From assembly GCA_015484845.1 (NCBI GenBank), contig WFUT01000039.1, forward strand, positions 1-38,920: a stretch of DNA of 38,920 nucleotides, given 5' to 3'. The stretch's first letter is position 1. Each line of letters begins with the position of its first letter. Source of the DNA: Desulfobulbaceae bacterium. GTDB taxonomy: Bacteria > Desulfobacterota > Desulfobulbia > Desulfobulbales > Desulfobulbaceae. The notes below the pieces were generated by a model. That model did no database searches, was not told the origin of the DNA, and saw nothing but the letters and a program-made list of their open reading frames with translations. A program made the translations under genes and the position numbers. This document shows, piece by piece, positions 34,629 to 38,843 of the stretch.

Positions 34629-35003
34629 ATGCACCTCGCCATCGACCCCAGCGCCGCCACGGAGCAGGTGAACGCGGCCACGGACAGCAAACGGGCCCGG
34701 GCGGCCCGCGCCCTGAAACGTTCCTGCCAGGACTTCGAGGCCATCTTCACCCAGTCCATGTTCAAGGCCATGCGCAAGAGCATCCCGGACGGCGGCCTGT
34801 TCGAACGGGACACGGCCCACGAGATCTACCGCGACATGCTCGACGCGCAGGTGGCCTCCGAGATCTCCAGGCAGCAGGGCCTGGGCCTGGCCGACCAGAT
34901 GTACAGGCAGATGGAGAAGTACCTGCCCCCTGACGACCGGCAAACAGGGGGAAAACCGGCCGAGCAGGGGACAGGTCGCGGCAAAGGGGATATCAGACCC
35001 TGA
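34629..35003 (+). CDS. flgJ: Rod-binding protein FlgJ (short, no muramidase domain)
   Basis: A 124-residue protein equivalent to the N-terminal rod-cap half of enteric FlgJ (about 310 residues). It has the conserved [20 protein letters not shown] and [20 protein letters not shown] blocks. The C-terminal glucosaminidase domain is absent, as in many non-gammaproteobacterial clusters, so a separate cell-wall hydrolase must open the peptidoglycan. CTGGAGGAACA precedes the ATG. Its 3' end overlaps the convergent receptor gene by 11 bases. Confidence 0.92.
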
Positions 35004-36630
35004 ACTTCAAACTGATTGCACGCAACTCCTCTGCCAGTTGAGAAAGATCTTGAACACTCTGCCGCACCTGGCCACTGGCCTCTGCCATCTCGTGGGCAGC
35101 GCCATTGACTTCCAGGATATCGCGGGCGATCTCACCGGAAACACTTGAACTCTGGGCCACGTTCTCCGTGACCTCCTGCAGTCCCACGGTTGCCTGGTTC
35201 ATATTGGCGGAGATCTCCTGTGTGGTCGCTGTCTGTTCCTCCACCGCAGCGGCAATGGTGGAGACGATGGCGTTGATCTCGTTGATCACCGAGGAGATGC
35301 GGCTTATCTGATCCACCGTGCCCCGGGTTGACTCCTGGATACCGTTGATCCTGGTCCGGATTTCCCCGGTGGCCTCCGCGGTCTGCTTGGCCAGTTCCTT
35401 GATCTCGTTGGCCACCACGGCAAATCCCTTGCCCGCCTCGCCGGCACGCGCCGCCTCGATGGTCGCATTGAGCGCCAGCAGGTTGGTCTGATCCGAGATC
35501 TCCGTAATCGTCTCGGTCACCTTGCCCACCTCGGTGGCCGCGATCCCCAGCTCACCAACCTTGTCCGAGGCATCCTCCACATCAGCCACGGCCGTGGTGG
35601 TTATCTTGCTGGCCTTGGCCGTATTCTTGGCAATCTCGTTGATGGCTCCCGTCAGCTCGTCCGTGGCCGTGGCAACGATACTGACATTGGTGACAGCCTC
35701 CTCGGTGGCAGCAGCTACCGTGTTCATGTTGGCGCTCATTTCCTCGGCAGCGGTGGCCACGGTCTCGGCCCTTGCCGTGGTTTGCTCCGCGCCGGAGGCT
35801 ACCTGCTCAGAGATGGCGGACAACTCGGTTGCCGAGGAGGCCAGCGTCTCGATCCCCGTGGTGATATTACCGATCATGCCGCCGACGTTATCGACAATCC
35901 GGTCCATGGAGGCAGCGAGCTGGCCCGCCTCGTCCTTCTGGTCCAGGCCGATCTTCCTGGTAAAGTCTCCGGTGGCCAGGTTGTCGGCAAAGGTCGCACA
36001 GCGGATAATGGGATTTTTCACAGCAGAGGTCAGCAGAAAGCTCAGGACTGCGCTCAGAAAGACGCCGATCATGGCACCGACCACAAGGGCGGTCCGTGCC
36101 GAACGGGCGACCCGGACATTCTCAACTGCGGTCTGTTCGAGCCGCTTTGTGGCCTTTGCAGACATGGCATTGCTCAGAGCAATGATCTTGTCCCCGGTCT
36201 TCTCGGCCCGAAGCAGGAGTGACTTGTCATGCTGTTCATGCAGCCTGCGGTAGTCCTGTTCATATCCTGCCAGCAGCTGCGCCATTTGCGCCACATTATC
36301 GCGCTGCTCCTTGAGTTCAGGATAGCGGCCGACCAGTTGTCTCAGATTGTCGAGGTCATCTTTCACCTCCTTCAGGCGGTTCCGTCCTTCCCGCATGTAC
36401 TCCATCTTCCGCTCGGCGCCATATAACAGGAATCTGGTCCGTGCCCTGGCAAAATCAGTGGCAAGCTCCTTTGAACCGGACACCGCCGGGATAAATGTAT
36501 TCTTTTGATCCTGTGCGTTGCCGATCATCCTCAAGATGGAGGTACCATTGGAAATAGCGAGAACAACCATTACGGCAACAATCAAGGAAAAAGCGATACC
36601 CAATTTATAGGAAAGTTTCATGTTTTTCAT
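34993..36630 (-). CDS. Methyl-accepting chemotaxis protein
   Basis: A 545-residue transmembrane receptor. Membrane helix 1 lies at about 10-30, and a four-helix-bundle-like sensor at about 31-180. Helix 2 is at about 181-203 ([20 protein letters not shown]), followed by HAMP. The signalling domain's hairpin tip at about 378-405 contains [20 protein letters not shown]. No NWETF-type CheR tether is seen at the end. The ATG at 36630 has AAAGGAAA upstream. The ligand is unknown. It is convergent with flgJ and overlaps it by 11 bases. No sigma-28 site was found upstream, and only a poor sigma-70-like candidate (TACAAT near 36730). Confidence 0.95.
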
Positions 36631-36905: not shown

Positions 36906-36933
36906 TAAAGATTCCCGGTTCTGCTGCCGATAA
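36906..36933 (+). promoter_or_regulatory. Sigma-28 (FliA) promoter for the unknown gene-flgM-flgN operon
   Basis: TAAA (36906-36909), 16 bases, then a perfect GCCGATAA (36926-36933). The predicted start is near 36940, about 65 bases before the ATG at 37007. FlgM under FliA control gives the usual negative feedback. The spacing is one base longer than the enteric consensus and identical to that of the flgK promoter here. Confidence 0.85.
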
Positions 36934-37006
36934 AAAGATAACAGGAAAAGTATCCTGGTTGCGTCGAGGCACGGATGCCCGCGGACCACTGCAGGGAGGC
37001 AGGAAC

Positions 37007-37579
37007 ATGTTAGATAGTATCAGCTCCGGTCATCAGGCTTACAGTACCCTCAACTTCCACCAGGCCTTCAGCCTGGAAATAACGGCTGGCCAGGAGGTGG
37101 AGAACGGCGAAGGCGGCAGTGCCACGGTCGTGGACAGGATCACGATCCGGCGGGAGACCAGCTTCGCCCTCACCTACTCCGGCGTCCTGCCGATCGAGAT
37201 GGACGAGGAGGCGGGGTACAGAAAGCTGCAGGACCTGGTCACCAACCTGCTCAAGGAACAGGGCATCGCCACCACGGTGGATACCGGTGACGCGACGGTC
37301 GACCTGGCCGCTCTCACACCTGGCACGGCACGGGAACTTGTTGCCGAGGACGGATATTTTGGTGTAGAAAAGACATCGGACAGGATCGTCGAGTTTGCCA
37401 AGGCCACCGCGGGCGGGGATCCGTCCAGGATCGACGCCATCCGGGAGGGAATCAGCCGGGGATTCGACGAGGCAAGGAAGGCCTTTGGCGGCCGGCTTCC
37501 GGACATCTCCCGGGAGACCTATGATGCGGTGATGGACAAACTGGACCAGTGGGTCTCGGAAGCAAAGGCCGCGGCATAG
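37007..37579 (+). CDS. Unknown protein heading the FliA-dependent flgMN operon
   Basis: A 190-residue soluble protein with no signal peptide or membrane helix. The N-terminal 65 residues are polar and strand-prone (FHQAFSLEITAGQEVENGEG). The C-terminal half is helical and contains GYFGVEKTSDRIVEFAKATA, then GISRGFDEARKAFGGRLPDI and a final DKLDQWVSEAKAAA helix. This end is reminiscent of the DUF5610 family, but I cannot verify that. The ATG at 37007 has AGGGAGGCAGGAA upstream; an open frame reaches back to 36875 across the promoter and is rejected. Its promoter and neighbours point to a late flagellar role (export partner, filament-related or regulatory); none is demonstrated. Confidence 0.75.
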   Translation: MLDSISSGHQAYSTLNFHQAFSLEITAGQEVENGEGGSATVVDRITIRRETSFALTYSGVLPIEMDEEAGYRKLQDLVTNLLKEQGIATTVDTGDATVDLAALTPGTARELVAEDGYFGVEKTSDRIVEFAKATAGGDPSRIDAIREGISRGFDEARKAFGGRLPDISRETYDAVMDKLDQWVSEAKAAA

Positions 37580-37605: not shown

Positions 37606-37896
37606 ATGACAGTTGAATTTTTAGGTATCCGCGGTTTTGGCCAGGTCGGCGGTGTCGGCAAGACAGGCAAGACCGGCAATACCCAAAAGACAGACAAGGC
37701 CGGCGGCGCCGAGGGCGCGAGTTTCTCTTCGGCCCTCCATGGTGCGAACCAGATGCAGGCGGCAAGCCAGACCGACCAGGCGGAACGGGCGGCGCGGGTC
37801 CAGGCCCTGAAAGAACAGGTCGCCAACGGTTCCTACGAGCCAGACCTGAACAAGGTCGCCTCCAGCCTACTGAAATTTCTTGTCGAGGAAGGATAG
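37606..37896 (+). CDS. flgM: Anti-sigma-28 factor FlgM
   Basis: A 96-residue protein. The first half is Gly/Lys/Thr-rich and probably disordered (VGGVGKTGKTGNTQKTDKAG). The C-terminal FliA-binding part has RVQALKEQVANGSYEPDLNK and ends VASSLLKFLVEEG, the standard FlgM pattern. It holds FliA inactive until exported through the completed hook. The ATG at 37606 has AGAGGTGAT 5 bases upstream; a GTG at 37597 is the alternative. It is followed 4 bases later by flgN. Confidence 0.93.
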   Translation: MTVEFLGIRGFGQVGGVGKTGKTGNTQKTDKAGGAEGASFSSALHGANQMQAASQTDQAERAARVQALKEQVANGSYEPDLNKVASSLLKFLVEEG

Positions 37897-37900
37897 GGCA

Positions 37901-38254
37901 ATGACACGGGATGATGTCCGTGAACTGATGATCGAACTGCGTGATCTCCTGCTCCAGGAGCGACAGCATGCCAGGGAGCTGGATATCCGGGCCATGGCCG
38001 AGGACACCAAGCGCAAGGAAGCCCTGCTGCAGGCCCTGAACCGGGTGGAGACCATCCATCCCGAGGATCGCAGGTACGCGGAAGAGATCAAGCGGGAAAA
38101 TCTCCGCAACGCCTACCTGTACAAGGCCACCCTGAACTGGATCCAGGAGACCATGGAATTCTTCGGCAAGAGGAGTGTGCCCACCACCTATGGCCAGACC
38201 GGCATGACCATGAGCCACACGGTCAATGGCAGGCTGCTCTCCGGCAGGATCTGA
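37901..38254 (+). CDS. flgN: Flagellar export chaperone FlgN
   Basis: A 117-residue, mostly helical protein (LMIELRDLLLQERQHARELD, TKRKEALLQALNRVETI) with the FlgN-type C-terminus TYGQTGMTMSHTVNGRLLSG. It chaperones the hook-filament junction proteins FlgK and FlgL, and flgK is the next gene. The ATG at 37901 has AAGGATAGGG upstream. The order flgM-flgN-flgK supports the call, as the family is weakly conserved. Confidence 0.88.
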   Translation: MTRDDVRELMIELRDLLLQERQHARELDIRAMAEDTKRKEALLQALNRVETIHPEDRRYAEEIKRENLRNAYLYKATLNWIQETMEFFGKRSVPTTYGQTGMTMSHTVNGRLLSGRI

Positions 38255-38711
38255 TCTCTCCACCACGCCATCCCGCTCCGCACCTCCTCGCCGGCCCCCA
38301 TTTCTTTCCGGCCGAAAAGTCCACGCCGGCACCGCGCCTGCCGCCCGCGGCCCACGGCCGCCAAGGCGCGATTTCCCCTTCCTTCGCCGCCGGGCATCCC
38401 CATCCCTCTTGCCCCTGTTGCCGGAAGAAGCCTCTTCTTAGCCCGGGATTCCCGGCAGAACCGTCGATAAAAAGGGAGATACGCACCATCTCGCCATCCC
38501 CCATCCCGCCCACAGGCACAAAAAATGGACAGGAGCCACTACGTGACACCGCAGAGCGGTGTCACGAGGTCGAGGTGGTGCCTGGAGGTTGAGGTGGTGC
38601 CCGGAGGTTGAGGTGATTGCCCGGAGGGTGGGGAGAGCCCAAAGGGTGGTTGCCCTTGTTGTACCGCTCAGCGGTGCAACACCTCTCCAGGCGCTCTGCG
38701 CCATTTTCGGA
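38255..38711. other. Non-coding repeat-bearing spacer between flgN and flgK
   Basis: No open frame here has a credible start or composition. Besides the repeats listed separately, it holds a small palindrome CCGGGATTCCCGG (near 38444-38456) and GGCGC-TCT-GCGCC (38690-38702). I saw no T-run after a hairpin that would make a clear terminator for the flgMN operon. Confidence 0.5.
38541..38680. repeat. Palindromic repeat (copy 2), tandem array and related palindrome
   Basis: GTGACACCGC (38543-38552) AGA GCGGTGTCAC (38556-38565) is the same element as at 22095-22117, with the same left (ACGTGACACC) and right (GAGGT.GAGG) flanks. It runs into a short tandem array of 19-20 base units based on GAGGTTGAGGTGGTGCCCG: 38566-38584, 38585-38603, 38604-38623 and a degenerate 38624-38641. 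A related imperfect palindrome, GTTGTACCGCT-C-AGCGGTGCAAC, follows at 38658-38680. It looks like a dispersed, non-coding genomic repeat family. Confidence 0.8.
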
Positions 38712-38739
38712 TAAAGTCCCGTCTCCGACAGGCCGATAA
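38712..38739 (+). promoter_or_regulatory. Sigma-28 (FliA) promoter for flgK
   Basis: TAAA (38712-38715), 16 bases, then a perfect GCCGATAA (38732-38739). The predicted start is near 38746, about 100 bases before the flgK ATG. It starts a separate late unit for the hook-filament junction genes. Confidence 0.85.
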
Positions 38740-38843
38740 GAAATACAGGACAATGGAATTTCTTCCGGTGGCATGACAGCAGCCGGCCGTCGCCCCGCCG
38801 ACGGCCCCCACCGGCAACCACGGACACCAGGGACAGGGTACAG

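Follow-up and report, generated by a model that had tools for sequence, protein, structure and literature searches.

A DUF5610-related gene heading a flgM-flgN operon, with a putative CsrA-type two-site leader, in Desulfobulbaceae

Described CsrA–FliW systems and the operon in the window

CsrA–FliW control is known best on flagellin mRNA. The hag leader of Bacillus subtilis carries two CsrA sites, one of them over the Shine-Dalgarno sequence, and FliW acts as the antagonist (PMC7652899). Similarly, Campylobacter jejuni flaA is bound by CsrA and forms two stem-loops with ANGGA loops, the second over the ribosome site, as supported by compensatory changes; in gel shifts of the same study, as given in its available sections, flgM mRNA was among the other messages bound (PMC4894983). 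In Geobacter sulfurreducens, flgM, flgN, csrA and fliW lie together in a flgJKLMN-csrA-fliW operon, and CsrA binds FliW in a manner that needs Asn55; the available part of that paper, on biofilms, names no DUF5610-like gene (PMC13407953). CsrA targets in this bacterial group were called unknown until 2025 (PMC11934962). Our literature search, with most subscription papers outside its reach, found no paper that names DUF5610 or joins Desulfobulbus with CsrA.

Here we describe a leader of the same two-site layout as those of hag and flaA, with putative binding read from the sequence; the gene behind it is not flagellin but a DUF5610-like gene (hereafter the DUF gene) that precedes flgM and flgN. 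It lies near the end of the 38,920-nucleotide stretch of DNA analysed here (the window), which is one contig (G000:C39) of a draft genome. The features are listed in Table 1. The open reading frame, its promoter and the good ribosome site (GCAGGGAGG) named in a preliminary description of the locus were all confirmed, with an ATG start and an exact sigma-28 match, as was the tight coupling to flgM and flgN: the gaps are 26 nt from the DUF gene to flgM and 4 nt from flgM to flgN, and both neighbours score above their Pfam cut-offs (45.3 bits for FlgM). That description missed the CsrA-type leader separating promoter and start codon. The B. subtilis operon runs yvyF-flgM-yvyG-flgK-flgL and thus also has an extra gene immediately upstream of flgM; homology to YvyF is not suggested, as the window protein had no match to any NCBIfam family at E ≤1. 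A convergent MCP gene (MCPsignal, 34993–36630, minus strand) separates flgJ from the DUF-flgM operon in the window, and flgJ lies close upstream of the DUF gene in many relatives.

Table 1. Coordinates of the operon features in the window
Feature	Position	Strand	Basis
Sigma-28 (FliA) type promoter	36906..36933	+	TAAA and GCCGATAA, 16-base spacing; exact match
Predicted leader, promoter to start codon, 73 nt	36934..37006	+	sequence, RNA fold
Putative CsrA site 1, hairpin GGC-ACGGAU-GCC	36968..36979	+	ANGGA-loop hairpin comparison
Putative CsrA site 2 over Shine-Dalgarno, CUGC-AGGGAG-GCAG	36989..37002	+	leader fold, conserved frame
190-aa DUF5610-like gene, putatively late flagellar	37007..37579	+	ATG start; ORF list, Pfam profile
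Codons 1–63, predicted disordered N-terminal region	37007..37195	+	AlphaFold2 pLDDT <50, residues 1–63
Codons 64–190, predicted ordered, mostly helical domain	37196..37576	+	AlphaFold2 models; DUF5610 at codons 140–181
flgM (anti-sigma-28)	37606..37896	+	Pfam FlgM and NCBIfam FlgM equivalog, both over cut-off
flgN (export chaperone)	37901..38254	+	Pfam FlgN, 32.2 bits vs cut-off 30.5
Second exact sigma-28 site, upstream of flgK	38712..38739	+	pattern search
flgK start, truncated by contig end	38844..38920	+	same first 25 residues as flgK on contig C179

Protein family, distribution and linkage to flgM

By profile comparison, the window protein is a remote relative of Pfam DUF5610 (PF18433). 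The preliminary description had hinted at this family and pointed in the right direction, although the match, at 24.5 bits (E 4e-05), falls just short of the curated cut-off of 26.4. Homology is detectable in the C-terminal domain, where the match spans profile positions 69–116; the first part of the profile is unmatched. Among 58 aligned relatives, 48 match DUF5610 at E ≤0.1 (best 3.1e-07). Consistently, a protein from a genome of the same phylum (G248) exceeds the DUF5610 cut-off at 55.4 bits and is also found by the family's own profile (E 1.8e-06), made from an alignment (A2) without loci L079, L090 and L091. Eleven residues are invariant over the 58 members, in or around DGYFGV, T..R, GF..A and LP.IS. 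A search of 297 genomes of the phylum with the family profile gave 14 at E ≤0.001, so the family is narrow.

AlphaFold2 predicted residues 64–190 to form a single, mostly helical domain, with the last helix at 166–189 and a mean pLDDT of 91.8 when the domain was modelled alone, in agreement with the helical C-terminal half and terminal helix expected earlier. Foldseek, run with the full model and with the isolated domain, returned nothing at E ≤0.001, and three PDB searches gave no sequence relative (best E 0.31 and 0.48 in two of them, nothing at E ≤1 in the other). The best VIA-align rows, at Z 7.6 in one run (CV_1783, rmsd 2.3 over 67 residues; Bak, rmsd 2.7 over 68) and Z 7.8 in a second (Bak, rmsd 2.5 over 65 residues), were not accepted as relatives, as such Z values are within the common range for helical bundles. 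A single PHROGs match (E 0.045) was taken as chance. For a small helical bundle, the lack of a standout structural relative says little, and it excludes no family.

Homologues were found in 37 of 96 genomes of the order, all of them carrying flagellar rod genes: of the 76 genomes with such genes, 37 had one, vs 0 of the 20 without (p 1.3e-05, kinship ignored). In genus g2, four genomes have both homologue and rod genes and three have neither. No homologue match was found in the other 39 flagellated genomes of the order. In 17 of the 37 homologue-bearing genomes, the gene immediately precedes an FlgM match, both being on one contig and one strand. In the other 20 it was not seen beside flgM, a count that includes draft genomes with flgM on another contig and two genomes (G006, G090) with no FlgM match; these are mostly of a more divergent subfamily. 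The preliminary description had named orthologues scattered away from flagellar genes, or in non-motile genomes, as evidence against a flagellar role; the scattering is thus in part real, whereas no genome lacking rod genes carried a homologue.

Among named loci, DUF-flgM-flgN linkage also proved partial: this order occurs in 37 of 57 (58 less L079, whose start was not found), and 20 are unlinked. The linked loci bear the names Desulfobulbaceae, Desulfocapsaceae, Geopsychrobacteraceae and Desulfuromonadaceae, families that we take to belong to the orders Desulfobulbales and Desulfuromonadales. The nearest named relative, at 81% identity, is from Desulfobulbus sp. HyVt-437. In the tree, the linked state needs three changes, and 11 unlinked rows form a separate, divergent clade, of which one copy (L085) comes after fliS-fliT-flaG; one unlinked locus (L068) falls inside the linked clade. 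A UBA2273 genome has two divergent copies, L082 and L085. A further homologue, on a long branch, lies in a contig labelled Defluviitaleaceae (Bacillota; L077), whose 12 kb yielded none of the flagellar genes searched for.

Promoter, leader and regulators

Exact matches to TAAAG-N(14–16)-GCCGATAA occur twice in the window (Table 1) and in none of 100 shuffles, and the DUF gene has one of them, a consensus FliA-type promoter, ending 73 nt upstream of its start codon. Among relatives, sigma-28-like sites with ≤2 mismatches and no more than 450 bp from the start precede 35 of 37 linked and 7 of 20 unlinked named loci, against backgrounds of 0.14 and 0.07 per 450 bp, respectively. With the spacing fixed at 16 bases and the distance at ≤130 bp, such a site still precedes 34 of the 37. 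Few were seen among 14 scanned homologue loci away from flgM (L019–L031, 13 loci, plus a full-length copy of L019). The earlier suggestion of a late, FliA-class gene is supported by the exact promoter, the flgM-flgN linkage and the restriction to rod-gene genomes, and we infer that the DUF gene is FliA-dependent and expressed late in flagellar assembly.

Two putative CsrA sites are arranged in the leader as in known CsrA targets. AGGGAG at 36993–36998 places an ANGGA motif over the Shine-Dalgarno sequence, and an ANGGA hairpin loop lies upstream (Table 1); RNAfold narrows that loop to CGGA by an extra A-U pair. An ANGGA loop with three or more closing Watson-Crick pairs is present in 25 of 44 distinct linked leaders, where shuffles lead one to expect 1.5, and is absent from 19. 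This count left out duplicates and leaders shorter than 60 nt (L017, L034, L045, L070, L072, L074), some of which stem from a start codon placed too far upstream. Most Desulfuromonadales leaders are without the first hairpin, L071 being an exception, and CANGGAGG is absent from 5 of the 44, all of the Desulfuromonadales branch. A five-base loop with CAGGA(U/A/C)G, the form given for the CsrB repeats (PMC7652899), is seen in seven of the hairpin rows, mostly from Desulfobulbus and its relatives.

Covariation was scored for hairpin 1 in alignment A4, 17 rows preselected for a hexaloop and at least three Watson-Crick pairs, so that the inner pairs are paired by selection and the outer ones are not. 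In these rows the score was 0.417 vs 0.135 in shuffles, with none of 500 shuffles as high, and 26 cells were changed on both sides vs 11 in shuffles; two of five measures (pairs with such a change; pair types) did not exceed shuffles. Covariation in the second hairpin is weak, with 25 of 500 shuffles reaching its score, the fold of the window leader is no stabler than that of shuffles (z −1.06), and Rfam gave two sub-threshold matches, on the other strand only. Around the ribosome site, GCA-N-GGAGGC is nearly fixed in 27 rows, and N is G in 18, T in 8, A in 5 and C in 4 of 35 rows, a freedom expected for ANGGA. ANGGAG is absent from 5 of 40 rows, in one of them due to a misplaced start codon. 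Alignment A6 omits these five as well as five Desulfuromonadales rows that have ANGGAG; alignment A3, which entered no count, omits L045, L049, L055 and L056.

At neighbouring starts these motifs are rarer. CANGGAGG lies upstream of 24 of 30 DUF genes vs 4 of 304 starts of twelve neighbouring flagellar or csr genes, and the looser ANGGAG upstream of 25 of 30 vs 37 of 304, nine of the latter being flgM. Of 37 DUF starts, these 30 satisfied the start rule; a script chose the starts, except that L032, L034 and L045 were reset by hand, the L045 reset being off. The bare two-site pattern is not specific, as a search of the window's own genome returned 23 matches vs 6 for a reversed control pattern.

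The regulators themselves are at hand. In the same genome, csrA (80 aa, with Asn55 as in G. sulfurreducens) and fliW are adjacent behind flgK-flgL on contig C179. Within the sequence available for the 37 linked named loci, both genes were detected in 21, a single one in 2 and neither in 14; the last group comprises 11 loci with less than 4.2 kb of downstream sequence and 3 with more. Two Geopsychrobacter loci (L066, 4427–5115; L067, 4285–5045) have the csrA and fliW genes ahead of the DUF gene, following flgJ. CANGGAGG is present at the ribosome site of both flagellin genes of the window's genome (L116 and L117, C179), and each has a sigma-28-like site that carries two mismatches and is weak on its own, so the DUF gene and the flagellins appear to be under the same two control levels. 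The second (L117) also has a hairpin, GGC-AAGGAT-GCC; its leader escaped the two-site pattern search because its gap exceeds the 24-base limit of that pattern. Of four copies of CANGGAGG in the 6.2 kb around the flagellins, two are upstream of flagellin starts. As judged from these motifs, the flagellin of this genome is probably a CsrA target. The added result of our analysis is a recurring CsrA-type leader that, in its sequence, treats the DUF gene, at the head of the flgM-flgN operon, like flagellin.

Export, proposed role and alternatives

The composition of the protein bears on its destination. The 37 linked members contain no cysteine in 7,015 residues, and the 20 unlinked members four in 3,715. 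At the same loci, cysteine is similarly rare in FlgG (0.03%), FlgK (0.04%), FlgM (0.05%) and FlgF (0.08%), all exported by the flagellar apparatus, and more frequent in FlgH (0.66%), FlgA (0.72%) and other long ORFs (1.39%), which together span 0.66–1.83%; the control ORFs were picked by length alone, and false frames may be among them. Avoidance of cysteine is suggestive only, since FlgN (0.26%) and FlgI (0.21%) are also low and FlgJ, exported in Salmonella, stands at 0.86%. The predicted N-terminal disorder (pLDDT <50, residues 1–63) would provide the flexible N-terminus of an export substrate, and residues 1–60 of the linked members are rich in Ser, Thr, Gln and Asn. Export by the flagellar apparatus is described for FlgM and the hook-filament junction proteins (PMC7911332). 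The missing cysteine, the predicted disorder and the flagellin-like signals favour an exported product, without proof. As to the roles proposed earlier, none of our findings indicates a chaperone or a partner of FliA.

We therefore propose, as an evenly balanced proposition, that the DUF gene encodes an accessory late flagellar protein that is transcribed with flgM and flgN from the FliA promoter, restrained by CsrA and FliW, and exported. CsrA on the leader hairpin and ribosome site would probably hold translation down, and FliW would probably free it again, in both steps as for flagellin. The cysteine-free chain would then probably leave through the flagellar type III exporter, disordered N-terminus included, and act on or near the filament or the hook-filament junction. 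This would assign the DUF5610-like family a definite position within late flagellar gene expression. A wider version, which we consider quite unlikely, makes these proteins a second CsrA–FliW client beside flagellin, exported and filament-associated, with a cytoplasmic level balanced or sensed together with that of flagellin; FlgM, FlgN and FliW would then be one secretion-coupled circuit headed by the DUF gene.

The protein might instead stay in the cytoplasm as a regulator or co-chaperone whose helical domain would adjust the late checkpoint by binding to FlgM, FlgN, FliW or CsrA, a possibility that is somewhat unlikely in our judgement. Its place upstream of flgM-flgN in 37 of 57 named loci would suit such a role, as would csrA and fliW nearby in 21 of 37 and a small helical domain rich in Asp and Glu, and low cysteine is shared by FlgN; however, neither a total absence of cysteine nor a long disordered N-terminus is needed for it, and copies away from flgM exist.

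A flagellated genome of the same family bears on what the leader serves. In G083 (L105), which has rod genes and flgM and gave no DUF homologue match, an exact sigma-28 site stands upstream of flgM. After 60 nt, as compared with 57 nt in the window, this site is followed by the DUF gene's ribosome motif, GCAGGGAGGC, for which no start codon was placed there. With promoter and motif kept, gene loss is likelier there than insertion, as far as one genome can tell; G083 has thus probably lost the gene, which would then not be needed for keeping flagellar genes. The same arrangement fits a leader that serves FlgM control; the DUF gene would then be translated as a coupled prelude to flgM, the protein made from it being of minor importance. 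The 26-nt gap to flgM, the gel-shift binding of C. jejuni flgM mRNA (PMC4894983, available part) and the looser ANGGAG at 9 of 37 flgM starts agree with this reading. It is nevertheless improbable: flgM has its own ribosome site, CANGGAGG occurs at 0 of 37 flgM starts, 11 residues of the DUF protein are invariant over 58 members, and L068 keeps the hairpin, CANGGAGG and a sigma-28-like site (two mismatches) away from flgM. The patchy presence of the gene, with no match in 39 of 76 flagellated genomes, could also mean that it is unconnected to flagella and sits in the operon by chance. This is very improbable, as many relatives share the gene order, the promoter and the leader motifs, and every homologue-bearing genome in the sampled order is flagellated. 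Our preferred reading remains an exported accessory protein under CsrA–FliW restraint.

Two further observations were made by eye downstream of flgN. Several near-copies of a GAGGTTGAGGTGGTGCC-like stretch lie in the flgN/flgK interval (38560–38640), and the flgK leader of the window (38740–38843) has CACGGAC and CAGGGAC close to the start codon.
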